Below, piece after piece: positions 51,259-64,000 of a DNA stretch of 64,000 nucleotides. Within the stretch, counting starts at the first letter, position 1. Each line of letters starts with the position of its first letter. This DNA comes from Solimonas aquatica (lineage in GTDB: Bacteria > Pseudomonadota > Gammaproteobacteria > Nevskiales > Nevskiaceae), in assembly GCF_900111015.1 (NCBI RefSeq), contig NZ_FOFS01000001.1, positions 372,001 to 436,000 on the forward strand, in the 5' to 3' direction. The notes beneath the pieces are model-generated. The model saw only the letters and a program-made list of their open reading frames with translations, did no database searches and was not told where the DNA came from. A program made the translations under genes and the position numbers.

Positions 51259-52752
51259 ATGGGCCTCGCGCTCAGCGCCAAGACAAACGCGCAGCACCGT
51301 GCACAGTCAGCGAAGGGCTGGCGTGCGCGCGGCGCAGCGCTGCTGCCCAAGACCATGGCCGGTCTGATCAGCGCCAGCTGTCTGCTCGCCGCGCTGCCCT
51401 TGCTGATCGCGCTGCTGCTCTCGGCGCTGTCGCTGGAACGCATCACCCGTCGCACCGAGGCGTTGATAGACGAGGGTGTCGCGGTGGCGCAGCTGTCCAG
51501 CCAGCTCGAAGCGGATCTCGGTCATCTGGAACGCAGCCTGCGCCAGTACGAGGTGTTGTCCGATGCCTCGCTGCAGGCACTGGCACAGAAACGCTGGAAC
51601 ACCGCGCTGCGCACCACGCAGCTGCTCGCCGCGCAGCCGCTGGACGCCACGCTGGCCAGCAGGGCCACCGCGCTGCGCCAGAGTCTGGGCGAAGCACAGG
51701 AAGCCTGGCAGCAGGCGCCGCAGGACGCCGGCGCCCTGGCCTTGCGGCTGCGGGCCATGGCGCAGCAAGTGGATGCGGTGATTCTTGCCGCGCGCCAGCG
51801 CACCCAGTTGCGCATGGACGAGCTGCGCGGCGCCACGCTGAGCGCGCGGCGCGACATGCTGATCTGCGCGCTCACGCTGATTCCGCTGGCGGCCGCGCTG
51901 GCGCTGGCCTGCTCGCTGACGGTGACCCGGCCGCTGCGCCGGCTCTATCGCAGCATCGCCGCACTCGGCCATGGCCGTAACGTCCCGGAGCCGCGCATCG
52001 GCTATCCGCGCGAGATGCATCGCCTCGCACAACAACTGGGATGGCTGCAACGGCGGCTAGCCGATCTGGAAGAGGACAAGGAGCGCTTTCTGCGCCAGGT
52101 CTCGCACGAACTGAAGACGCCGCTGGCCAGCCTGAGCGAAGGCAGCGCGCTGCTGGGCGACGGCACCCTGGGCCGGCTCAATGCCAAGCAGCAGGAAGTG
52201 ACCACCATCCTGCGCGAGGCCAGCGGTGAGCTCGAAGCGCTGATCCACAATCTGCTGGCCTATGCGCAGTGGCGACAGAACCGCCGCCGCGCCGAACACG
52301 AATGGTTCGCGGCCAAGGATCTGCTCGACGAGGTGCTGTCCAAGCACAGCCTGTCGCTGAGCCGGCGCGGCCTGCGCGTGCTGCTGCAGCTGCATTGCGA
52401 ACGCCTCTACGGACAGCGCGCACAGCTGCGCGTGGTGCTGGACAATCTGCTCACCAATGCCATCAAACATGCGCCGGCCGACAGCGATATCGAGATCGGC
52501 GGCGGCGGCCAGAGCCAGCGTTGCGAGCTGAGCGTGCGTGATCGCGGGCGCGGCATCGCGCCGCAGGAACGCGAACGCATCTTCGAACCCTTCGTGCGCG
52601 GCAGCGACGCCGACGAACAGCGCGTGCGCGGCACCGGCATCGGACTTTCCATCGTCAAAGAGGTCATCACCGCCCATGACGGCATCATCACCGTGGAGGA
52701 TGCCCAGCCTGGCGCGCGCTTTCGCCTGGTCTGGCCGCATCCTCGTGTCTAG
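51259..52752 (+). CDS. Membrane sensor histidine kinase (GlrK/QseE-like)
   Basis: This 497-residue kinase has two TM helices (near residues 34-58 and 201-222) enclosing a helical periplasmic sensor of about 140 residues, then HAMP-like linker, HisKA with His283 in QVSHELKTPLAS, and HATPase (DNLLTNAIKHAP, then GTGIGLSIVKEV). Followed by a lipoprotein gene and a sigma-54 activator gene, it matches the E. coli glrK-qseG-glrR layout. It probably phosphorylates the regulator at 53139 in response to envelope conditions. Confidence 0.9.
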   Translation: MGLALSAKTNAQHRAQSAKGWRARGAALLPKTMAGLISASCLLAALPLLIALLLSALSLERITRRTEALIDEGVAVAQLSSQLEADLGHLERSLRQYEVLSDASLQALAQKRWNTALRTTQLLAAQPLDATLASRATALRQSLGEAQEAWQQAPQDAGALALRLRAMAQQVDAVILAARQRTQLRMDELRGATLSARRDMLICALTLIPLAAALALACSLTVTRPLRRLYRSIAALGHGRNVPEPRIGYPREMHRLAQQLGWLQRRLADLEEDKERFLRQVSHELKTPLASLSEGSALLGDGTLGRLNAKQQEVTTILREASGELEALIHNLLAYAQWRQNRRRAEHEWFAAKDLLDEVLSKHSLSLSRRGLRVLLQLHCERLYGQRAQLRVVLDNLLTNAIKHAPADSDIEIGGGGQSQRCELSVRDRGRGIAPQERERIFEPFVRGSDADEQRVRGTGIGLSIVKEVITAHDGIITVEDAQPGARFRLVWPHPRV

Positions 52753-53138
52753 CACGCTGCTGGGCTGCGCGGGCTGCCTGGCACCGGGCGGCACGCACGA
52801 TACGCAGGACAGCGCGGCGTTTTTCGCCGAGGCCCTGCAGGCCACTCCGGTGCAGCGGCAGCGCCTGTGGACGCGTCAGCGCCAGGCGCCGGACGGGTCC
52901 GACCGCGCCCTGCGTCTGGCGCTCCTGCAGAGCCTGCCCGGCCACAGCGGCTACGCACCCGAACAGGCGCAGCGCCGGCTGCAGGCCCTGGCGCAAGGCG
53001 GGGACGCGGACGCTGCGCTGGCGCGCCTGCGGCTGGACGAACTGGCACAGGCGCGCGCCTGCAGCGCCGAACAGGCAAGGCTGCAACGCAAGCTGTGGCG
53101 CCTGGTGGACATCGAACACACCCTGGATGAGGAAGGTC

Positions 53139-53167
<29 letters not shown>
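52700..53167 (+). CDS. QseG-like lipoprotein
   Basis: From the ATG at 52700 the 155-residue product begins MPSLARAFAWSGRILVSST and reaches LLGC, a textbook lipoprotein signal with basic n-region, hydrophobic core and lipobox. This places the start 53 bp inside the kinase gene; GGAGG is right at the ATG, so spacing is poor and a GTG at 52748 is possible. The mature part is Gln/Ala/Leu-rich and helical (AEQARLQRKLWRLV). Position between kinase and activator equals QseG of E. coli, an outer-membrane lipoprotein that modulates the kinase. Confidence 0.65.
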
Positions 53168-54479
<1,312 letters not shown>

Positions 54480-54483
54480 CGCT

Positions 54484-55122
54484 TCAGAATCCCTTCGCCG
54501 CCTGCCAGAGCATCGCCGCGCGTCCGCATTCACAGTCGAAGACATAGGCGCAGCCGTTGCCGAAGCTCATCTCGGTGCGATAGTCCGGGCCTTGCTCCAG
54601 CTGGGCCACGAACTGCATCTGACGGTTGCAGCTGCATACCGGAGTCTGGTCCTTGCGCAGCCAGGTGGGCGCGCCGAGCAGACGGCCGAGCACATGGCGA
54701 CGGCTGCGGTCGCTGTCTTCGGCCCATTTCTCGCGCGCCGCGTCGTAGCGCGCCTCGTCCACGTCCACACGCTCGGCGCCGTACATCACGCTGCGCGTGA
54801 CCACGCCGCCTTCCGGCGCCGGCACCAGCTCGAAGCGGCCGTTGGCCTCGAAACAGATCGCGGCATTGCCGCCGGACGCCGCGTGGCCGTCACCGCACTG
54901 GCCCGGATTGTTCTGGCACATGAACAGCAGGATGAACTGCCGGCCGCGGCCGCCCACGCGCTCGGGAACATACAGGCGTCCGAGAAACTGCATGGCGCCG
55001 CCGCAGGTGCGGCAGCAAGGCCAGCTGAAGGCGCTGCCTTCGGGGGCGATGGGCAGGCCGCCGAACACGGTGCCGGTCTTGCTGTCCTGGGCTATGGGGG
55101 CGTAGGTGAGAAGAATGGTCAT
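54484..55122 (-). CDS. Uncharacterised Cys-rich cytoplasmic protein
   Basis: This 212-residue protein has several cysteine pairs (PCCRTCGG, CQNNPGQCGD, VCSCNRQ, DCECG) that could bind zinc, and no signal peptide. The block FLGRLYVPERVGGRGRQF and the terminal CECGRAAMLWQ hint at a DUF1963/PDCD2-like beta fold, but I do not recognise the family firmly. It ends four bases from the glrR-like stop, convergent, and borders the amidohydrolase cluster. Confidence 0.6.
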   Translation of the reverse strand: MTILLTYAPIAQDSKTGTVFGGLPIAPEGSAFSWPCCRTCGGAMQFLGRLYVPERVGGRGRQFILLFMCQNNPGQCGDGHAASGGNAAICFEANGRFELVPAPEGGVVTRSVMYGAERVDVDEARYDAAREKWAEDSDRSRRHVLGRLLGAPTWLRKDQTPVCSCNRQMQFVAQLEQGPDYRTEMSFGNGCAYVFDCECGRAAMLWQAAKGF

Positions 55123-55209: not shown

Positions 55210-55220
55210 GCAGGTAGGGC
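55210..55220 (+). repeat. 11-mer element upstream of the first amidase
   Basis: GCAGGTAGGGC starts 66 bp before the ATG at 55276. The same 11 bases occur at 58912-58922, 67 bp before another start of this cluster. It may be a shared promoter or operator element. Confidence 0.35.
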
Positions 55221-55275
55221 AAATGCCAGGCGGCCGCGTCTCTAGGTGAGCACCTCCCTAGCCCGGCCCGCTGCC

Positions 55276-57267
55276 ATGAAACGCTTGCTGCTCGCCCTTG
55301 CCACCGTCTTCACCACCGTTCAGGCGCAGGCCGCCTTCAAGCTGGAGGAGGCCACGATTCCGCAGATCCAGCAGGCGATCCTCAACAAGGAGATCACCTC
55401 CACCAAACTCGTGGAGCTGTATCTGGCGCGGATCAAGGCTTACAACGGCGCCTGCGTGGCGCAGCCCAACGGCATCCTGGGACCGATCAGCACCATCGCC
55501 AACGCCGGCCAGATCAATGCCCTGGTCACGCTCAATCTGCGTCCGCAGCGCCGTCAGCAATGGGGTTTCGACGAGCGCAAGGCGCGCAGCCTCACCGACA
55601 AGAGCGATGCCGATCCGAAGATGCCCGACGCCCTGGAAGTGGCGAGCGCGCAGGACGCCGAGTTCGCGCGCACCGGCAAGCTCAGCGGCCCGCTGCACGG
55701 CGTGGTGATGGCGATCAAGGATCAGTACGACACCTTCGACATGCGCACCACCGCCGGCGCGGATGTGCCCTATGCCAATGACCGTCCGCCCGACGATGCC
55801 ACCTTCGTCGAACGCTTGCGCAAGTCCGGCGCCATCATCCTGGCCAAGTCCAATCTCGGCGAATACGCCTCGGGCATCCCGCGCAGCTCCTACGGCGGCA
55901 CCTTCTGCAATCCCTACGACACCGAGCGCAGCCCGCGTGGCTCCAGCTCCGGCTCGGGTTCCGCGGTGGGCGCCAATCTGGTCACCTGCGCGATCGCCGA
56001 GGAGTCGGGTTCTTCCATCCGGGGTCCGGCCAGCGCCGCCAGTGCGGTGGGCATCGCCGGCACGCAGGAGCTGGTGAGCCGCGACGGCATGGTCCAGCAC
56101 GGCATCAATACCCGCACCGGCCCGATCTGCCGCACCGTGGCCGATGCCGCACGGGTGCTGGATGTGATCGCCGGTTATGACCCGAAAGACGAGCTGACCG
56201 CGTTCAGCATCGGCCGCATGCCCAAGAGCGGTTATCTGAGCGCGGCCGAGCCCGGCTCGCTCAAGGGCCTGCGCATCGGCGTGCTGCGCGAGTACATGAA
56301 CAAGAAGCTGTTCACCAAGGCCGACGAGCAGAGCATCGACCTCGTCGCCAAAGGCGTGGAAGACCTCAAGGCCCTGGGCGCCACCGTGGTCGATCCGGGT
56401 CCGGAAGGCGCGCTGTTCACCAGCTGCCTGCGGCGCCTGGTGCCGGAGCTGGACAACAAGCTGTTCACCAAGCGCTTCCCCGAACTGTTCCCGGTTGATG
56501 CGAAGGGCAGCCCGGTGGGTGATCACACCGCCAAGCTGCTGGAGCTGCGCATGGACCCGGGCAAGGTGCCGGACAAGCTCACGCTGCGTGACTTCGGCCC
56601 CAGCGCCCCGGATGGCCAGAACAAGTACATGATGAATCTGTATCTGGCCGAACGCGGCGATGCGCGCATCAGGAGCAATGCCGATCTGATCGCCTGGTCC
56701 AGCTTTCATCAGGACCCGCAGTTCCCGGATCGCAAGAAAGGCCGCGAGCGCGCCGAGGAGGTGAAGGAATACAACATGTCCGAGCGCATCCTGCGGCGTT
56801 TCGCGGTACAGCAGGCCGTGCTTGCCTGCATGGCCGAACAACAGCTCGACGCCCTGGTCTATCCCACCAGCAATCTGCCGCCGACCAAGCTCGGTGCGCC
56901 GCAAGGCCCTGCCATCAATGGTCGCAGCGGCGGCGGCGTGTGGACCTTCCTCGGTGCACAGGGCTTCCCGGCGATCACGGTGCCGGCGGGCTATACCACC
57001 GAGGTCTACGATCTGGTGCGCGATCCCACTGCGCCCAAGACCCCGGACTCGGCCTGGGAGGGTGGCGGTGGCGGCGAAGGCCGTCTGGCCGGCGACGAGC
57101 GCACACGCCTGATCGGACCGATCAAGGCCAGGCTGCCGGTGGGCATCGACTTCCTCGGCAAGCCCTTCGATGAACCCACGCTGCTGCGCATCGCCGCCGC
57201 GTATGAGGCACGCACGCATCATCGTCGGCCACCCACGGGCTTCGGTCCGCTGGCGGGAGAACCCTGA
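55276..57267 (+). CDS. Exported amidase-signature hydrolase, long form
   Basis: This 663-residue protein has a signal peptide (MKRLLLALATVFTTVQAQA) and an amidase-signature domain with the Ser-cisSer-Lys triad: Lys148 in MAIKDQYD, cis-Ser around 223-225 in RGSSSGSGS, and nucleophile Ser247 in SGSSIRGP. It is some 130 residues longer than usual, with insertions near residues 58-125 (including PQRRQQWGFDE) and 410-540. It should hydrolyse an amide in the periplasm; the substrate is unknown. The ATG at 55276 was chosen because the signal peptide begins there. The stop overlaps the next ATG (TGATG). Confidence 0.88.
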   Translation: MKRLLLALATVFTTVQAQAAFKLEEATIPQIQQAILNKEITSTKLVELYLARIKAYNGACVAQPNGILGPISTIANAGQINALVTLNLRPQRRQQWGFDERKARSLTDKSDADPKMPDALEVASAQDAEFARTGKLSGPLHGVVMAIKDQYDTFDMRTTAGADVPYANDRPPDDATFVERLRKSGAIILAKSNLGEYASGIPRSSYGGTFCNPYDTERSPRGSSSGSGSAVGANLVTCAIAEESGSSIRGPASAASAVGIAGTQELVSRDGMVQHGINTRTGPICRTVADAARVLDVIAGYDPKDELTAFSIGRMPKSGYLSAAEPGSLKGLRIGVLREYMNKKLFTKADEQSIDLVAKGVEDLKALGATVVDPGPEGALFTSCLRRLVPELDNKLFTKRFPELFPVDAKGSPVGDHTAKLLELRMDPGKVPDKLTLRDFGPSAPDGQNKYMMNLYLAERGDARIRSNADLIAWSSFHQDPQFPDRKKGRERAEEVKEYNMSERILRRFAVQQAVLACMAEQQLDALVYPTSNLPPTKLGAPQGPAINGRSGGGVWTFLGAQGFPAITVPAGYTTEVYDLVRDPTAPKTPDSAWEGGGGGEGRLAGDERTRLIGPIKARLPVGIDFLGKPFDEPTLLRIAAAYEARTHHRRPPTGFGPLAGEP

Positions 57268-58862
57268 TGCCCGCCCTGCCCCTGCTGCGCCGCGGGCTGC
57301 TCGCCGCGGCGCTCGCCAGCCTGCCCCTGCTCGCGCACAGCACCGATGTGCCGCTGACGCAGGCCAGCATCGAGGATCTCAACAAGGCCTTCGCTGCCGG
57401 CACGCTGAGCGCGGAGTCGCTGTTGAAGATGTATCTGCAGCGCATCGCCGCCTACGATCAGGCCGGCCCCAGGCTCAATGCGGTGATCACGCTCAATCCC
57501 AAGGCGCTTGAAACGGCGCGGGCGCTGGATGCCGAGCGCAAGGCCGGCAAGGTCCGCGGTCCGCTGCACGGCGTGCCGGTGGTGCTCAAAGACAATTTCG
57601 ACACCGCCGATCTGCCCACCAGCGGCGGCTCCTTCCTGCTCAAGAACTCGCTGCCACCTGATGACGCTTTCGTGGTGAAGAAGCTGCGCGCCGCCGGCGC
57701 CATCATTCTGGCCAAGGTGAATCTTTCCGAGTTCGCCTCGGGCAGTCCGATGAGTTCGCTGGGCGGCCAGAGCCTCAATCCGCATGACCTTGAACGCACG
57801 CCCTCGGGTTCTTCCGGCGGCACGGGTGTGGCGATTGCCGCCGACTACGCACCGCTGGGCCTGGGCACCGATACCGGCGGCTCCATCCGGGGACCGTCCA
57901 CGTCCAATGGCATCGTCGGCCTCAAGCCCACGCATGGCCTGCTGTCGCGCGACGGCATCATTCCGCTGGCGCTGTCCTTCGACACCGGCGGCCCGATGGC
58001 GCGCAGCGTCTACGATGTGGCGCTGGCCCTGGGCACCATGACCGGCATCGATCCCGCCGATCCCGCCACGCAGAAGAGCAAGAGCCGGCTGGAAAGTGAT
58101 TACACGCGCTATCTGAAAGCCGATGCCCTCAAGGGCGCGCGCATCGGCGTGGCGCGCGACTTCATGGGCGCCGATCCGGAAGTGGACTGGATCATCGAAG
58201 CCTCGCTCAGTGCGATGAAGGCGGCGGGCGCCACCATCATCGACGTGAAGTATCCGAAGTGGCTGCTCGACGGCAAGGGCGAGTTCTACAATGTGCTGCG
58301 CCGCCCGGAATTCCGCGAGCAGGTCACCACCTATCTGGGCACGCTCAAGCCCGGCTTTCCGCGCAGCCATGCCGAGCTGATGGCCGCCTCGGAAAAACTG
58401 GTTTCGCCGCGTGATGGCTTCGTCCCCAACCAGGGGCGCTGGACGCTGTTCAAGCAGGAAGCCAAGGCGCCGGCCCTGGATGATCCGGAAGTGGTGGCGG
58501 TACGCGAGCACGCCCTGCCCCTGATCCGCGACACCCTGCAGGGCCTGATGGCGCGCGAGAAACTCGACGCCATCGTCTATCCCACTTCACCGCGTCGTCC
58601 GGCCAGACTCAATGAAGAGCCTGGCAGTGGCGCGGGCGTCACGGCTTCGGCGACCAATATCGCCAATCTCAGCGGCTTTCCGGATCTGATCGTGCCGGCG
58701 GGGTTCACCAGCGGCGGACTGCCGGTCGGCATCTCCTTCTTCGGCACGGCCTTCAGCGAGCCGAAGCTGCTGGCCCTGGGCTATGCCTTCGAACAGAAGA
58801 CCCGCGCGATGCGCCTGCCGAAGAGCACACCGCCGCTGGAAGGTGAAGTGATTCATTACTGA
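57267..58862 (+). CDS. Exported amidase-signature hydrolase
   Basis: This 531-residue protein has an Arg-containing signal peptide (LRRGLLAAALASLPLLAHS) followed by a normal-length amidase-signature domain: Lys108 in VVLKDNFDT, cis-Ser near 182-183 in TPSGSSGGTGV, nucleophile Ser206 in GTDTGGSIRGP. It is coupled to the preceding amidase by a one-base stop/start overlap, so both are exported together. The two share only the core and are not a recent duplication. Peptide-amide or aryl-amide hydrolysis in the periplasm is the family expectation. Confidence 0.9.
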   Translation: MPALPLLRRGLLAAALASLPLLAHSTDVPLTQASIEDLNKAFAAGTLSAESLLKMYLQRIAAYDQAGPRLNAVITLNPKALETARALDAERKAGKVRGPLHGVPVVLKDNFDTADLPTSGGSFLLKNSLPPDDAFVVKKLRAAGAIILAKVNLSEFASGSPMSSLGGQSLNPHDLERTPSGSSGGTGVAIAADYAPLGLGTDTGGSIRGPSTSNGIVGLKPTHGLLSRDGIIPLALSFDTGGPMARSVYDVALALGTMTGIDPADPATQKSKSRLESDYTRYLKADALKGARIGVARDFMGADPEVDWIIEASLSAMKAAGATIIDVKYPKWLLDGKGEFYNVLRRPEFREQVTTYLGTLKPGFPRSHAELMAASEKLVSPRDGFVPNQGRWTLFKQEAKAPALDDPEVVAVREHALPLIRDTLQGLMAREKLDAIVYPTSPRRPARLNEEPGSGAGVTASATNIANLSGFPDLIVPAGFTSGGLPVGISFFGTAFSEPKLLALGYAFEQKTRAMRLPKSTPPLEGEVIHY

Positions 58863-58911
58863 GCCATGGCCGGCCCCATCAGCCCGCAAGGCGGACTCGC
58901 GGCGCAGCCAG

Positions 58912-58922
58912 GCAGGTAGGGC
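58912..58922 (+). repeat. 11-mer element upstream of the membrane protein gene
   Basis: This is the second copy of GCAGGTAGGGC, 67 bp before the ATG at 58979. The preceding gene stop is only 50 bp upstream, so the element lies in a short intergenic region where a promoter would be expected. Confidence 0.35.
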
Positions 58923-58978
58923 GATCGCCGCGCTTCACGTCAGAACAGACAAGCCCCTCGCCTCTCGAGCCCCGCCGC

Positions 58979-60682
58979 ATGGCCTCACCCCTCGCCGCCA
59001 TCGCATCAGCCGATGCTGCGCCTCGCGTGAACGCATCGGCGCGCGGCAGCTGGGTCCTGGATCCGGCGCAGGATCTGCTGTTCGTGATTCTCGCGCCGCT
59101 GCTGGTGCTGGTGCTGGCCATCGCGGCATTCCGCACGCTGGGCGCGGTGCAGGCTACGGCGCTGGTGCTGGGCACGCATATCGTGATGACCGTGGCGCAT
59201 CACCTGCCCACCTTCATCCGCATCTACATGGATGTGCAGCTGTTCGCCCGGCATCGCTGGACCTTCCTGCTCGCACCGCTGCTGCCCTTCGGCATCACCC
59301 TGGCTGCAGGCGGCTGGTTGCTGGCGCATCGGTTGCCGGCTGAAAACCTGCTGTACCTGTTTCTGCTCGCGGTGCTCTGGGACCCCTGGCACTTCCTGAT
59401 GCAGCACTACGGTTTCATGCGCATCTACGACCGCGCCAACCAGGCGCCACATCGGCTGGCGGCGCGCATGGATCTGGCGCTGTGCGCCAGCTGCTTCATC
59501 GCCATCATGCTGGCCAGCAGTGAATGGCTGGCCGGTCTGCTGGAAGACCTGCATCGCAGCGTGGCCTTTCCTGCCGGCCTGATTCCGCCGCCCGCGCTGC
59601 TTGCGACCTTGCGCGAACTCGCGCTGCTGCTGGCGCTGGGCACGCTGATGATCTATGCGCTGTATCTGCTGTGGTGCCTGCAGCAGCGTTATGTCCTGAG
59701 CCTGCGCAAGCTGGCGCTGTTCGGCTGCAGCTTCGCAGCCATGGCCCTGGCCTACACGCCCAATGCCTGGATCACGCAGCTGGCGCCGGGCTGGACCTTC
59801 AAGGTGGGCTTTGCCGCCATCGGCATCGTGCACATGACACAGTACCTGGCCATCGTCTGGCGCTACAACCGGGGCCTGACCGCACGGAGCGGACGTGCAC
59901 GAGGCGGCTGGTTCACGCGCCTGCACGCGCGCGGCGGACTGCTGATTGCCGGCGCGTATGTGCTGCTGTGTCTGGGCTACGGACAGACCGTGAGCAGCCA
60001 GTGGCGCAGCGATGCGCTGATGGTCTTGCTGATCGCCCTGGGTCTGACTTCCACACTGATGCATTACTACTTCGACGGCTTCATCTGGAAGCTGCGCCAG
60101 CCGGCCAATGCCCAGGTGCTGGATCTGCCGGCCCGCGAAACGCCGGCGGCGCCGGGCACCGCCGCCGGTCCCGGCCGCGTGTTCGCGCGTCAGCTTCTGT
60201 ACTTCGGACTGCCGCTGGCGCTGTTGTCCAGCGGCGCCTGGGCGGTCTGGCACCGTGACAGCGCCGCCGGTTACGTAGGGCATCTGCTGCGCGCCAACGT
60301 CTTGTCACAGCAGGGCGATGCCACCGGTGCGGCACAGGAAGCCATGGCCGCCTATGCCGAGATGCAAAGCCAGCTGCCCTTCGAACAGAGCATGACGCAG
60401 ATCCATCCTTCCGCTGCACGCGAGACCTCGCTGGCCATGCTGGTCTACAACCACGCGCGCTTCGCGCATCTGCTGCTGCCCTCGCTGCAAGGTCATGCCC
60501 CGGATACCGCCGACCGCGCCGCCTATGCGCAGGCCACCGTGCAGGCGGCCACGCTGCTGGAGCGTGCGCTGGAGCGCGCCGAGCCGCTGGGCGACGCCGG
60601 CGGCGCGCCGATGCGCCGCGAGGACGCGCAGCGTCTGCTGCAGAGCTGGCGCGCCGAACTGCAGGCCCTGCATGCGCACTGA
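58979..60682 (+). CDS. Histidine-rich polytopic membrane protein
   Basis: This 567-residue protein has about ten TM helices up to residue 420, then a helical soluble domain of about 145 residues with an Ala/Gln-rich, TPR-like look. Histidines occur in or at the edge of predicted TM segments: His67, His74-His75 (VAHHLPTF), His138 and His143 (DPWHFLMQHYG), His285 (GIVHMTQ) and His362 (LMHYYFDGFIW), as in membrane-bound metalloenzymes. I recognise no named family. It separates the amidase pair from the asparaginase pair and is followed by a terminator. Confidence 0.65.
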   Translation: MASPLAAIASADAAPRVNASARGSWVLDPAQDLLFVILAPLLVLVLAIAAFRTLGAVQATALVLGTHIVMTVAHHLPTFIRIYMDVQLFARHRWTFLLAPLLPFGITLAAGGWLLAHRLPAENLLYLFLLAVLWDPWHFLMQHYGFMRIYDRANQAPHRLAARMDLALCASCFIAIMLASSEWLAGLLEDLHRSVAFPAGLIPPPALLATLRELALLLALGTLMIYALYLLWCLQQRYVLSLRKLALFGCSFAAMALAYTPNAWITQLAPGWTFKVGFAAIGIVHMTQYLAIVWRYNRGLTARSGRARGGWFTRLHARGGLLIAGAYVLLCLGYGQTVSSQWRSDALMVLLIALGLTSTLMHYYFDGFIWKLRQPANAQVLDLPARETPAAPGTAAGPGRVFARQLLYFGLPLALLSSGAWAVWHRDSAAGYVGHLLRANVLSQQGDATGAAQEAMAAYAEMQSQLPFEQSMTQIHPSAARETSLAMLVYNHARFAHLLLPSLQGHAPDTADRAAYAQATVQAATLLERALERAEPLGDAGGAPMRREDAQRLLQSWRAELQALHAH

Positions 60683-60709
60683 TCATTTTCCCTGGGTGAA
60701 TCCCGGTTC

Positions 60710-60750
60710 GCCGTCATGTCGGACTTCGACTTCATGACGGCCCTTTTCTT
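60710..60750 (+). terminator. Rho-independent terminator after the membrane protein gene
   Basis: GCCGTCATG and its perfect complement CATGACGGC enclose a 14-base loop that can fold an inner GTCG/CGAC stem; CCTTTTCTT follows. It ends the amidase/membrane-protein transcript ahead of the asparaginase genes. Confidence 0.7.
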
Positions 60751-60765
60751 CTGCCTACTCACGCG

Positions 60766-61803
60766 ATGATCCGACGATCCTTACTTGTCGCCGTACTGGC
60801 CAGCGCACTGCTGACACCGCTGGGCGCTTATGCGCAGACCGCTTTGCCCAAGGTCAAGCTGTTCACCACCGGCGGCACCATTCAGAGCAAGGGCGCACAC
60901 CGCCAGAAGCTCATGGAATATTCCGACGGCCGGGTCACGCCGCAGGAACTGCTCGACGATCTGCCGGAACTCAAAGACCTGGCCGAGATCAGCACCATGG
61001 AGGTCGCCAACGTCGGCTCCGGCAACATCGCCGCCGAGCAGCTCCTGACGCTGGCGCGTGAGATCAATGCCTGGCTGGCGCGTCCCGAAGCCACCGGCGC
61101 AGTGGTCACGCATGGCACCGCCACGCTGGAGGAAACCGCGTACTTCCTGAACCTCACCGTGCACTCGCAAAAACCGGTGGTGATGGTGGGCGCCATGCGG
61201 CCGTTCACGGCGGTGAGTCGCGACGGCCCGATGAATCTCTACAACGCGGTGCGCGTCGCCGTGGCGCCGCAGTCCAGGGGCATGGGCGTGCTGATCATGC
61301 TCAATGACGAGATCAACGCCGCCCGCGACACCACCAAGACCAACACCTATCGCGTGGAAACCTTCGTGGCGCGCGACCTGGGACCGCTGGGCTTTGCCGA
61401 CTCCGACCGCATCGCCTACTACCGTCGTCCGCTCTACCGGCACACCTACCGCTCCGAGTTCAACGTGGACCAGCTCAGCACGCTGCCGCGTGTGGACGTG
61501 GCCTACACCTATCAGGAGGCCGATGGCGCCGCCATCGATGCCTTCGTCACCGCCGGCGCCAAGGGCATCGTACTCACCGGCGGTGGCGGCGACGCCGTGA
61601 AGGCCGCGCAGAACAAGGGCGTGCTGATCGTCAACAGTGATCGCAAGGGCGCCGGCCGCGTGGTGGAGAGCGAGAAAGTCGCCGCCAGCGGCCGCATCAC
61701 GTCCGACAATCTGCCGCCGCACAAGGCGCGCATCCTGCTGCGTCTGGCCCTGACCAAAACGCAGGACCCCAAACAAATCCAGCGCATGTTCAATGAATAC
61801 TGA
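60766..61803 (+). CDS. Exported type II asparaginase homologue with altered active site
   Basis: This 345-residue protein has a signal peptide (RRSLLVAVLASALLTPLGAYAQ) and the full type II L-asparaginase fold. Thr35 in FTTGGTI, Thr118 in VTHGT and Lys191 in TTKTNT fit AnsB Thr12, Thr89 and Lys162, but the residue after Thr118, Asp90 in AnsB, is Ala119 (codon GCC). The Gln59 position is Gly86 (VGSGN). Loss of the Asp that positions substrate and drives catalysis argues against normal asparaginase activity. It probably acts on another amide or has lost activity. It overlaps the next gene by 11 bp. Confidence 0.88.
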   Translation: MIRRSLLVAVLASALLTPLGAYAQTALPKVKLFTTGGTIQSKGAHRQKLMEYSDGRVTPQELLDDLPELKDLAEISTMEVANVGSGNIAAEQLLTLAREINAWLARPEATGAVVTHGTATLEETAYFLNLTVHSQKPVVMVGAMRPFTAVSRDGPMNLYNAVRVAVAPQSRGMGVLIMLNDEINAARDTTKTNTYRVETFVARDLGPLGFADSDRIAYYRRPLYRHTYRSEFNVDQLSTLPRVDVAYTYQEADGAAIDAFVTAGAKGIVLTGGGGDAVKAAQNKGVLIVNSDRKGAGRVVESEKVAASGRITSDNLPPHKARILLRLALTKTQDPKQIQRMFNEY

Positions 61804-62968
61804 AATCAGCTTCGCTGCGTGTCGCGCGGGCAAGGCCTCGCAGCTTCCGAGACACCGCCTGCTGCGCGTGCTGCTGCTGTCCGCCGGCCCGCTGCTGGCG
61901 GGCGTCGCCACCGCGCAGGAGATTCCCAGGTACGCGCCGCCGCCGCCGATGCCGGCGGCCAATGCCAGGCTGCCGACCGTGGTGCTGATGTCGATGGGCG
62001 GCACCATCGCCAGCCGGGGTGCGCCGCGCCTCAACATCACCAACTACGGCGGCAAGGACTATCCGCGCGTGGATCCGCAGGACTGGGTCAATGATCTGCC
62101 GGAAATCCGCGGCATCGCCAACATCGTGCTGGAAGATCAGCGCGCGCCGCAGGAGCGTGCCAGCAGCGAAACCCATGAGGATTTCGCACGTGTGGCCAGG
62201 CGCCTCAATGAGCTGGCGCGCGATCCCAAGATCGACGGCATCGTGGTCACGCATGGCACCAACACCATGGCGGAGACCGCCTATTACATGAACCTGGTGG
62301 TGAAGACCGACAAGCCCATCGTGTTCGTCGGTTCGCAGCGCCCCTGGACCGGCCTGTCCGGCGATGGCCCGCGCAATCTCTACGATGCGGTGCGCGTCGC
62401 CGCCTCGCCGCAGTCGCGTGGCAAGGGGGTGTTGCACGCCATGAACCAGTTCATCAATCCGGCGCGCGACGTCAACAAGAGCAGCGCCTATCGCGTGCAG
62501 ACCTTCCGCGGCATCGACGTCGGTGCCATCGGCTTTGTCGATCCCGACAAGGTGGTGTTCTATCGCGAACCGGTACGCCGCCACACCAGCGGCTCGGAGT
62601 TTGCCGGCAATGACTACCAGAGTCTGCCCAGGGTTGAAGTCGCTTACGCCTATCGCGATGCGCCGGGTTACCTGATCGACGCCATGGTCGCCAATGGCGC
62701 CAGAGGCATCGTGGTGGAAGGCACCGGCGCCGGCAGCCCCACTTCCGACCAGACCGAGGCGATCAAGCGCGCGCAAGCCAAGGGCGTGGTGGTGGTGGCC
62801 ACCGCGCGCACCGAAGGTGGCCGCGTGCAGGACACGCCGCGTCGTCGCGAGGCGCGCATCGTGCCCGGCGACAATCTGGTGCCGGAGAAGGCGCGCATCC
62901 TGCTGCAGCTGGCGCTGACCAAGACCCAGGACCTGGGCGAAGTGAAGAGGATCTTCGATGAGTACTGA
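61793..62968 (+). CDS. Exported asparaginase-fold paralogue lacking catalytic Thr and Asp
   Basis: This 391-residue protein has a long, basic signal region (HRLLRVLLLSAGPLLAGVATA) and an asparaginase fold. The nucleophile position in the first loop is Met68 (SMGGTI, where AnsB has ATGGTI), and AnsB Asp90 is Asn157 (VTHGTNTMAET); Thr156 and Lys229 (DVNKS) remain. The flexible-loop region also differs and no VGSQ-like motif is seen. By the classical mechanism it should be inactive on asparagine. It overlaps the preceding gene by 11 bp and the next by 11 bp, so production is tightly linked to both. Confidence 0.85.
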   Translation: MNTEISFAACRAGKASQLPRHRLLRVLLLSAGPLLAGVATAQEIPRYAPPPPMPAANARLPTVVLMSMGGTIASRGAPRLNITNYGGKDYPRVDPQDWVNDLPEIRGIANIVLEDQRAPQERASSETHEDFARVARRLNELARDPKIDGIVVTHGTNTMAETAYYMNLVVKTDKPIVFVGSQRPWTGLSGDGPRNLYDAVRVAASPQSRGKGVLHAMNQFINPARDVNKSSAYRVQTFRGIDVGAIGFVDPDKVVFYREPVRRHTSGSEFAGNDYQSLPRVEVAYAYRDAPGYLIDAMVANGARGIVVEGTGAGSPTSDQTEAIKRAQAKGVVVVATARTEGGRVQDTPRRREARIVPGDNLVPEKARILLQLALTKTQDLGEVKRIFDEY

Positions 62969-64000
62969 AACCTGCCGCAGTCCGGCCACCATGCTGCTGC
63001 TCGCCGCCAGCCTGCTGCTGGGCGGCGTGGCGCAGGCAGCGGAACGGTATCCGGCCTATCAGCATCACGTGAAGCTCACGCCGGAGAATTCCGTCATCGG
63101 CAATTTTCCGCAGGACAAGCAGCCCATCCTCACCGTGAAACCCGGTGCCGTGGTACGCATCGACGGCGGTGGCGGCAATCGCTGGTCGGAGCAACAGGAC
63201 GCCTTCGCCTGGATCGCCGAAAACCACATCAAGCTCGATGCCGATGAGACCGAGGCGCTGCGCGAGATTGCACGCGTGGTGAAGGAAACCCCGCGCCAGG
63301 GCGAGATCAAGAGCGGCCATCTGCTGGTAGGCCCCATCGCGGTCGAGGGCGCAATGCCCGGCGACACCCTGGAGGTGCGCATCCTGGCCGTGCGGCCGCG
63401 CATCCCTTATGGCACGGTCGGCGGTCGTCCCGGTCGCGGCGGCATTCCCGATGACGTGAAAGAGCCTTTCAACTACGTGGTCGGTTTTGATCCCAAGCGC
63501 AGCACCGGCTATTTCAAACCCGGCATCGAAGTGCCGCTGGCGCCGTTCATGGGCGTGATGGGCGTGTTGCCGGCGAGCGACGAAGGCCCCAACCGCCGCA
63601 GCGGGCCGCCGGGTCTGTTCGGCGGCAACCTCGACTGCAAGGAACTGGTGGCCGGCACCTCGCTGTATCTTCCGGTCTTTCATCCCGGCGGTCTGTTCTA
63701 CACCGGCGATGCGCACGCCGCGCAGGGCGATGGCGAGGTCACGGTCAACGCCATCGAAACCGCCAACACCGCGGTGCTGCAGTTCGTCCTGCACAAGAAC
63801 ACCGGCCTGACCGTGCCGCGTGCGGAAACGCCCACGCACTGGATCACCTTCGGCCTGGACGAGGATCTGGATCAGGCGATGATGATGGCAATCCGGCAGA
63901 CCAATCAGTTTCTCGCCGAGAAGAAAGCACTGGGCTTCAGCGAAGCCTTCGCGCTGTCCAGCATCGGTATCGACTTTCACGTGACGCAGGTGGTGGACGG
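62958..64000 (+). CDS. Exported acetamidase/formamidase-family protein, 3' end outside window
   Basis: The frame runs off the right edge after 347 codons. A signal peptide (MLLLAASLLLGGVAQAA) precedes an FmdA/AmdA domain (PF03069): VIGNFPQDKQPILTV, GHLLVGPIAVEGAMPGD, GNLDCKELVAGTSLYLPVFHPGG and GDAHAAQGDGEV, the last two being the family's active-site blocks. Members hydrolyse formamide, acetamide or small amides to ammonia. Unlike most relatives it is exported. The ATG at 62958 overlaps the preceding gene by 11 bp (ATGAGTACTGA). Confidence 0.9.
   Translation, partial: MSTETCRSPATMLLLAASLLLGGVAQAAERYPAYQHHVKLTPENSVIGNFPQDKQPILTVKPGAVVRIDGGGGNRWSEQQDAFAWIAENHIKLDADETEALREIARVVKETPRQGEIKSGHLLVGPIAVEGAMPGDTLEVRILAVRPRIPYGTVGGRPGRGGIPDDVKEPFNYVVGFDPKRSTGYFKPGIEVPLAPFMGVMGVLPASDEGPNRRSGPPGLFGGNLDCKELVAGTSLYLPVFHPGGLFYTGDAHAAQGDGEVTVNAIETANTAVLQFVLHKNTGLTVPRAETPTHWITFGLDEDLDQAMMMAIRQTNQFLAEKKALGFSEAFALSSIGIDFHVTQVVD

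Follow-up and report, generated by a model that had tools for sequence, protein, structure and literature searches.

A cluster of putatively exported amide hydrolases in Solimonas aquatica, its membrane protein MEM, and their co-occurrence with a TonB-dependent receptor module

In polysaccharide-utilisation-type loci, a receptor imports a large molecule and periplasmic hydrolases finish it. Together with FecIRA-type uptake systems, type II L-asparaginases, and peptide amidases, such loci are the closest described relatives of the gene cluster considered here. It lies at the right end of a 64,000-nucleotide stretch of the Solimonas aquatica genome (G000:C28:372001-436000; hereafter "the window"). 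This genome measures 4.43 Mb in 31 contigs; in the labels used below, a G with a number denotes a genome (G000 being that of S. aquatica), and an L with a number denotes a stretch around a locus. In the window, the cluster encodes two amidase-signature enzymes, two asparaginase-fold hydrolases, an acetamidase/formamidase-fold protein, and a membrane protein that we call MEM. Judging from sequence, it may be one module of a system for TonB-dependent import of amide-rich cargo, with hydrolysis by periplasmic amidases and sensing through FecI/FecR, a reading to which we assign a probability of roughly one half. A literature search among open-licence PMC papers found no published description of a system of amidases, receptor, and MEM.

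The full cluster consists of eight co-directional genes, after the last of which opposite-strand genes begin (a position in L002 equals the window position minus 54999):

55276-57267, plus strand: AmiA, amidase-signature protein, putatively exported, 663 aa from ATG (PF01425, 222.6 bits; Lys/cis-Ser/Ser triad; hydrophobic N-terminus)
57267-58862, plus strand: AmiB, amidase-signature protein, putatively exported (PF01425, 342 bits; PDB peptide amidases 1m21 and 5ac3; triad)
58979-60682, plus strand: MEM, polytopic membrane protein whose histidines are conserved and whose C-terminal domain is helical (from alignment and model; no family match)
60766-61803, plus strand: AsnA, asparaginase-fold hydrolase, putatively exported, without Asp90 (PF00710 and PF17763; TIGR00520, 371.1 bits)
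61793-62968, plus strand: AsnB, asparaginase-fold hydrolase, putatively exported, with Asn at position 90 (PF00710 and PF17763; TIGR00520, 297 bits)
62958-64000, cut by the window edge, plus strand: FmdA, acetamidase/formamidase-fold protein (PF03069, 103.1 bits); the full gene ends at 64082 (ORF L002:7959-9083)
L002:9300-10850, same strand as FmdA, beyond the right edge: AmiC, amidase-signature protein
L002:10872-12458, same strand as FmdA, beyond the right edge: AmiD, amidase-signature protein

On re-reading the coordinates, the six window genes were found where a preliminary description of this DNA had placed them, with a TGATG overlap between AmiA and AmiB (57265-57269) and 11-bp overlaps between AsnA and AsnB (61793-61803) and between AsnB and FmdA (62958-62968). 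A GTG at 55246 is a possible alternative start of AmiA. The same description spoke of five consecutive enzymes; five enzyme genes are indeed there, but the MEM gene sits between the second and the third. Its suspicion that the right edge cuts the cluster proved correct, as AmiC and AmiD lie beyond it. All five window enzymes exceed the Pfam cut-offs (27 bits for PF01425).

In other genomes, too, these families occur side by side, which was the check that the preliminary description had proposed, so their clustering goes beyond chance. MEM occurs in 13 of the 85 genomes of the order Nevskiales: 3 of 11 in the genus of S. aquatica, and 1 of 2, 2 of 4, and 7 of 18 in three other genera. FmdA homologues with at least 55% identity over most of the query are present in all 13 MEM-positive genomes and in none of the 72 MEM-negative ones, at a cut chosen after the table had been seen; some FmdA match exists in 30 of the 85 genomes, reaching at most 48% identity in those lacking MEM, apart from a 35-residue stretch at 63% in G014. 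MEM adjoins AsnA or FmdA in 12 of its 13 genomes. In G006, it has an RND pump and two AmiA genes in its vicinity, with AsnA, AsnB, FmdA, AmiC, and AmiD on another contig (L024, L029). Carriers of the system, which is scattered over Solimonas, Hydrocarboniphaga, Nevskia, and their close relatives, include Solimonas flava DSM 18980, Solimonas soli DSM 21787, Hydrocarboniphaga effusa AP103, H. daqingensis, and metagenome-assembled genomes (MAGs) of Nevskia. Since its spread within genera is patchy, joint gain or loss of the cluster is suggested. Absences from a neighbourhood weigh little in these comparisons, as the gene caller, which picks open reading frames (ORFs) by their G+C content at third codon positions (GC3), overlooked some genes, split some, and put some on the wrong strand, among them an RND adaptor and two amidases in L074, and AsnB in L020 and L028.

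That the enzymes may act on imported cargo is suggested by a second island of nine amidases, at about C28:168-205 kb on the same contig as the window, because TonB-dependent receptors, FecI/FecR, and an RND pump are found there:

L074:16637-18238, minus strand: amidase, first in the minus-strand order given here
L074:15452-16624, minus strand: RND adaptor
L074:12324-15455, minus strand: RND permease
L074, after the RND permease, minus strand: AmiA2, FecI, and FecR
L074:4989-8063, after FecR, minus strand: STN-bearing TonB-dependent receptor
L074:2119-4908, minus strand: second TonB-dependent receptor
After the second receptor, minus strand: DUF3450, small inner-membrane genes, TonB, a TPR protein, and four amidases
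L073:6537-7898, end of the array, minus strand: outer-membrane efflux channel (OEP)
L075:1935-5122, upstream of the array, minus strand: two further amidases
L074 from about 18246, upstream of the array, plus strand: one further amidase

The ECF sigma factor, FecR, and the STN-bearing receptor stand together at L074, each by Pfam matches over the cut-offs; the ExbB-, ExbD-, and MotA-like names of the small genes between DUF3450 and TonB were read from translations and not taken from a database. Beside this island, on the other strand (L073:3541-6246), are genes whose translations resemble an amidohydrolase and a Rieske-type oxygenase.

Presence of the receptor family nearly coincides with that of MEM. 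With at most the 10 best candidates scored per genome, it was found (E<=1e-120) in 12 of the 13 MEM-positive genomes and in 1 of the 72 MEM-negative ones (Fisher p about 1e-12, a value that, like the p-value given below for amidase counts, overstates independence because the genomes are related). Of the 12 genomes with both, 7 (G006, G007, G008, G013, G026, G039, and G042) have them on one contig at a distance of 3-40 kb, and four drafts (G020, G021, G024, and G028) have them on separate contigs. A TPR gene, TonB, and an array reaching to two receptors directly follow MEM in L019, FecI and a receptor follow it in L024, and FecI and a receptor are located about 5 kb upstream of it in L036. A receptor shares its stretch with an amidase or MEM in G000, G006, G007, G008, G013, G021, G024, G026, G039, and G042, the receptor-linked amidase of G024 being a distant one (28% identity to AmiB2); in G020 and G028, the contigs are of insufficient length to show linkage of receptor and amidase. 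In G015, receptor and amidase occur in two overlapping stretches, which hold FecI, FecR, two receptors, DUF3450, small membrane genes, a TPR protein, AmiB2, and AmiB3. As this genome has the receptor-amidase core without MEM, the group of MEM, AsnA, AsnB, and FmdA may have been added to that core.

All 18 stretches of the S. aquatica genome that match PF01425 score over the cut-off. They correspond to 16 proteins, 13 of which sit in the two islands on C28, four in the first and nine in the second. In all 13 island amidases, the alignment columns taken as catalytic (Lys, cis-Ser, Ser) are intact: the Lys is kept, as are the Gly/Arg-Ser-Ser/Thr stretch and the Ser nucleophile. Matches to PF01425, counted as matched stretches, number at least 13-21 per MEM-positive genome (n=13, median at least 18) and 1-13 per MEM-negative genome (n=72, median 5; Mann-Whitney p about 1e-8); the former are lower bounds, as only the best 17 candidates were scored in many of these genomes. 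Searches beyond the order used even samples with few candidates scored per genome, so absence there is not proven. In one of them, a protein of the AmiA type (E<=1e-90, at most the three best candidates scored) was found in 1 of 398 Pseudomonadota, S. aquatica itself. For AmiB, the score against NCBIfam PRK08137 is narrowly under the cut-off (485.2 against 534). No substrate can be read from AmiC and AmiD, whose modest matches to GatA, urethanases, fatty-acid amide hydrolases, and 6-aminohexanoate cyclic dimer hydrolase are all of about the same strength.

Three papers describe Asp90 as invariant in L-asparaginases and critical for substrate binding (PMC6667453), as one of five residues crucial for catalysis (PMC8256714), and as a substrate-binding residue (PMC9500103). 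AsnA scores above and AsnB below the type II L-asparaginase cut-off of TIGR00520 (314.3 bits). In an alignment of 12 AsnA and 9 AsnB sequences, from which AsnB of L020 and L028, missed or split by the gene caller, was left out, Thr12, Thr89, and Lys162 are kept in all 21 members. Asp90 is absent from all of them, its place being taken by Ala (10), Thr (1), or Ser (1) in AsnA and by Asn in AsnB (9). Ser58 is kept in AsnA; the corresponding stretch of AsnB is changed and mostly longer. Both control asparaginase homologues from other Gammaproteobacteria (L084 and L085) carry Asp90. The preliminary description had spoken of an asparaginase fold and not of asparaginases, which was thus prudent. Because Asp90 is missing, asparaginase was rejected as the default function of both proteins, and they are most likely amidohydrolases for a substrate other than asparagine.

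Within the genus of S. aquatica, PF00710 proteins occur in 3 of 11 genomes, with two copies in each, all within the MEM cluster. Among 369 Gammaproteobacteria (at most the five best candidates scored per genome), AsnA was matched at E<=1e-70 in three: S. aquatica and two others, at 43-44% identity and one locus each, whose proteins carry Asp90. Very divergent, much larger PF00710 proteins were also seen near amidase islands (L092:15357-17312, 652 aa; L030:11393-13144, 584 aa). FmdA is far under the cut-off of the formamidase equivalog NF045496 (61.6 bits against 500, for the window copy, which lacks the last 27 residues). At L030:2821-8775, an FmdA copy adjoins P-type ATPase and Band_7 genes (Pfam), and similar-looking ones adjoin copies of FmdA or AmiA in L018 and L031-L033; these neighbours may hint at a link to metal.

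MEM had been called a membrane protein of unknown family, and it has no match at E<=0.001 in Pfam, NCBIfam, or the PDB sequences. When 16 members were searched against Pfam and NCBIfam up to E=1, only weak matches of single members appeared (best 0.0034, PF19451). By these searches, MEM is an undescribed family of putative membrane proteins. Five histidines (H74, H138, H143, H285, and H362) are invariant in the alignment of the 16 members, in motifs that include WDP-x-HFLMQHYGF-x-R-x-YDR, H-x-TQYLAIVW, and HYY-x-DG-x-IWK-x-R. All five are kept in a distant relative (L088), which itself has no Pfam family. The conserved histidines would be consistent with a metal or haem site in the membrane. 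The predicted model is of fair quality, with a mean pLDDT of 78.4 and a pTM of 0.76 (75.9 and 0.76 for the membrane part alone), and Foldseek returned no match at E<=0.001 for either. Its C-terminal part resembles TPR-like helical repeats, a common arrangement (best VIA Z 12.1 over 92 residues, within the tool's noise for helical models). A likeness of the membrane part to rhodopsin (VIA Z 5.0-5.7, likewise within that noise) is not believed.

Relatives of MEM at 35-40% identity were found in planctomycete MAGs (L045, L047, and L048) with no cluster relatives seen nearby, and MEM was also found in a 3-kb contig (L044), again with none seen; the planctomycete relatives indicate that the family is wider than the cluster. 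Among 398 Pseudomonadota (at most the four best candidates scored per genome), matches at E<=1e-10 were limited to S. aquatica and one partial match (7e-11). A JmjC_2 (PF08007) protein adjoins MEM in L025:12158-13312 and lies between RND and FecI genes in L092:10154-11035, with similar sequences in L026, L027, and L093; it may stand for an oxygenase step.

Several genes around the first island were noted in passing. Upstream of the cluster and on its strand (window 51259-54479) are a sensor kinase-like gene, a short gene, and an NtrC-type response regulator, named from their translations. A predicted minus-strand gene of unassigned kind (54484-55122) lies head to head with AmiA. About 11 kb past the right window edge (L003:36-500), there is a reading frame of a repeated Gly/Ala-rich unit, partly masked.

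Taken together, these parts could work as follows. The receptor pair, one member of which carries an STN domain and is encoded beside FecI/FecR, would take up some scarce compound rich in amides, such as an oligo-amide or a peptide-like substance, with the linked TonB complex driving the uptake. Its different amide bonds would then be cut in the periplasm by about a dozen amidases, the two altered asparaginase-fold hydrolases, and the acetamidase/formamidase-fold proteins. MEM would provide an inner-membrane step, perhaps as a metal- or haem-binding enzyme or as a transporter of a product, while the RND pump and the outer-membrane channel might expel products or surplus. Export of the enzymes was judged by a home-made hydropathy score (mean Kyte-Doolittle value over 10 residues, threshold 1.8). 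All five window enzymes show a hydrophobic stretch after basic residues with means of 2.1-2.8, and 11 of the 16 island hydrolases of S. aquatica exceed the threshold; 2 of 10 window proteins picked as likely cytosolic controls also exceed it, and the score is no more than suggestive of export. The preliminary idea of one exported amide-hydrolyzing system is partly supported, in that its families co-occur and adjoin elsewhere; a stepwise attack on one polymer or xenobiotic stays conjectural.

Several observations speak against joint import and hydrolysis. Five of the 16 island hydrolases score under 1.8: AmiC (1.79), AmiA3 (1.68), one L074 amidase (1.55), AmiD (1.15), and AmiA2 (-0.39). AmiA2 scores low because its ORF start lies too early, and from an internal start it has a typical signal sequence; the N-termini of AmiC and AmiD are twin-arginine-like. 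In S. aquatica, MEM and the receptors are 243 kb apart. The MEM-negative G015 has the receptor module and amidases without MEM, and the MEM-positive G023 gave no receptor match among the candidates scored. In Planctomycetes and in L036, MEM was seen with no relatives of the cluster around it. The genomes are related, and their counts are not independent. Finally, the enzymes may have expanded together and still not act on a common cargo.

The rival explanations are not mutually exclusive, and their likelihoods need not sum to one. The main rival, which overlaps with import of amide-rich cargo, is a xenosiderophore or metallophore version: a chelating peptide or hydroxamate would be imported, the amidases would free the metal or feed carbon and nitrogen, MEM would reduce or move the metal, and the RND system would return the remnants. 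The FecI/FecR/STN arrangement fits it, as do the RND permease, adaptor, and channel within the same array, the P-type ATPase and Band_7 neighbours of FmdA in L030, and the PDB matches of one receptor, which are mostly to siderophore or metallophore receptors and mostly in the plug region. The siderophore receptor family TIGR01783 is the best NCBIfam match of the receptors, but the three score only 80.1, 46.4, and 91.4 bits, under the cut-off of 223.5. In PMC11800396, desferrioxamine degradation by amidases is cited, along with an amide hydrolase active on marine siderophores; this desferrioxamine breakdown, however, concerns the form not loaded with iron and serves carbon and nitrogen supply, not iron. 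Upstream of fecI, no Fur-box-like site better than in shuffled sequence was found in any of 6 genomes (scored against a consensus, with a crude null). Five further starts in the S. aquatica genome were scanned as well, and the site upstream of the window cluster (a match at 11 of 19, with 3% of shuffles as good) is not evidence, because 11 regions were tried. In our judgement, a dozen amidases also seem excessive for siderophore hydrolysis, and we consider this version unlikely.

Rather unlikely, too, is independent scavenging of nitrogen or carbon, in which amplification would have brought together a broad set of amide hydrolases that serve no single cargo and are functionally unconnected with the receptors. 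The diversity of the amidases (27-47% mutual identity among the four of the first island) and their differing order between genomes would fit, but amidases adjoin the receptor module time and again, and receptor presence follows that of MEM closely. It is doubtful that the window operon (MEM, the asparaginase folds, and FmdA) and the receptor-linked amidases are two separate systems with different functions. The distance between the islands in S. aquatica and the receptor module of G015 speak for such a division; against it, MEM and receptor are close neighbours in 7 of 12 genomes, and MEM adjoins the TPR-TonB array in L019 and FecI with a receptor in L024. Protection, with the enzymes and the RND pump destroying and expelling an amide-containing toxin or antibiotic that enters via the receptors, would account for the RND adaptor, permease, and channel in the array, but we judge it a poor fit to an import module that is dedicated and has a sigma factor of its own, and hold it to be very improbable.

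If TonB-dependent import of amide-rich cargo is correct, amides would join the cargo classes for which such import is coupled to periplasmic hydrolysis. More tentatively, the locus could belong to an "amide-utilisation locus", combining import under its own sigma factor, a dozen periplasmic amidases, asparaginase folds with a changed substrate, and a MEM enzyme of a new family, and acting on natural or man-made oligo-amides that have no known uptake route. Over a dozen linked, triad-keeping amidases are on offer for amide, peptide-amide, and polyamide chemistry, and AsnA and AsnB form a natural test of the asparaginase fold without Asp90. As the named strains carry the system, it is open to experiment.

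All parts except MEM are of known kinds; their combination and scale are undescribed in the literature searched. An alignment of AmiB with the Stenotrophomonas peptide amidase (1m21/1m22) spans nearly all of the protein (338 bits), and the Lys-Ser-Ser triad is shared, but AmiB is one of a dozen linked amidases accompanied by an import system. AsnA and AsnB have the fold, length, and Thr12, Thr89, and Lys162 of type II L-asparaginases (class 1; E. coli EcAII), which, unlike them, have Asp90. With FecIRA-type uptake, the locus shares an ECF sigma factor, FecR, an STN-bearing receptor, and TonB in one place; it differs in its linkage to amidases, in missing the siderophore cut-off, and in showing no Fur-box-like signal. 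The likeness to polysaccharide-utilisation-type loci would lie in import by a receptor followed by periplasmic hydrolysis, with amide hydrolases here in place of glycoside hydrolases.

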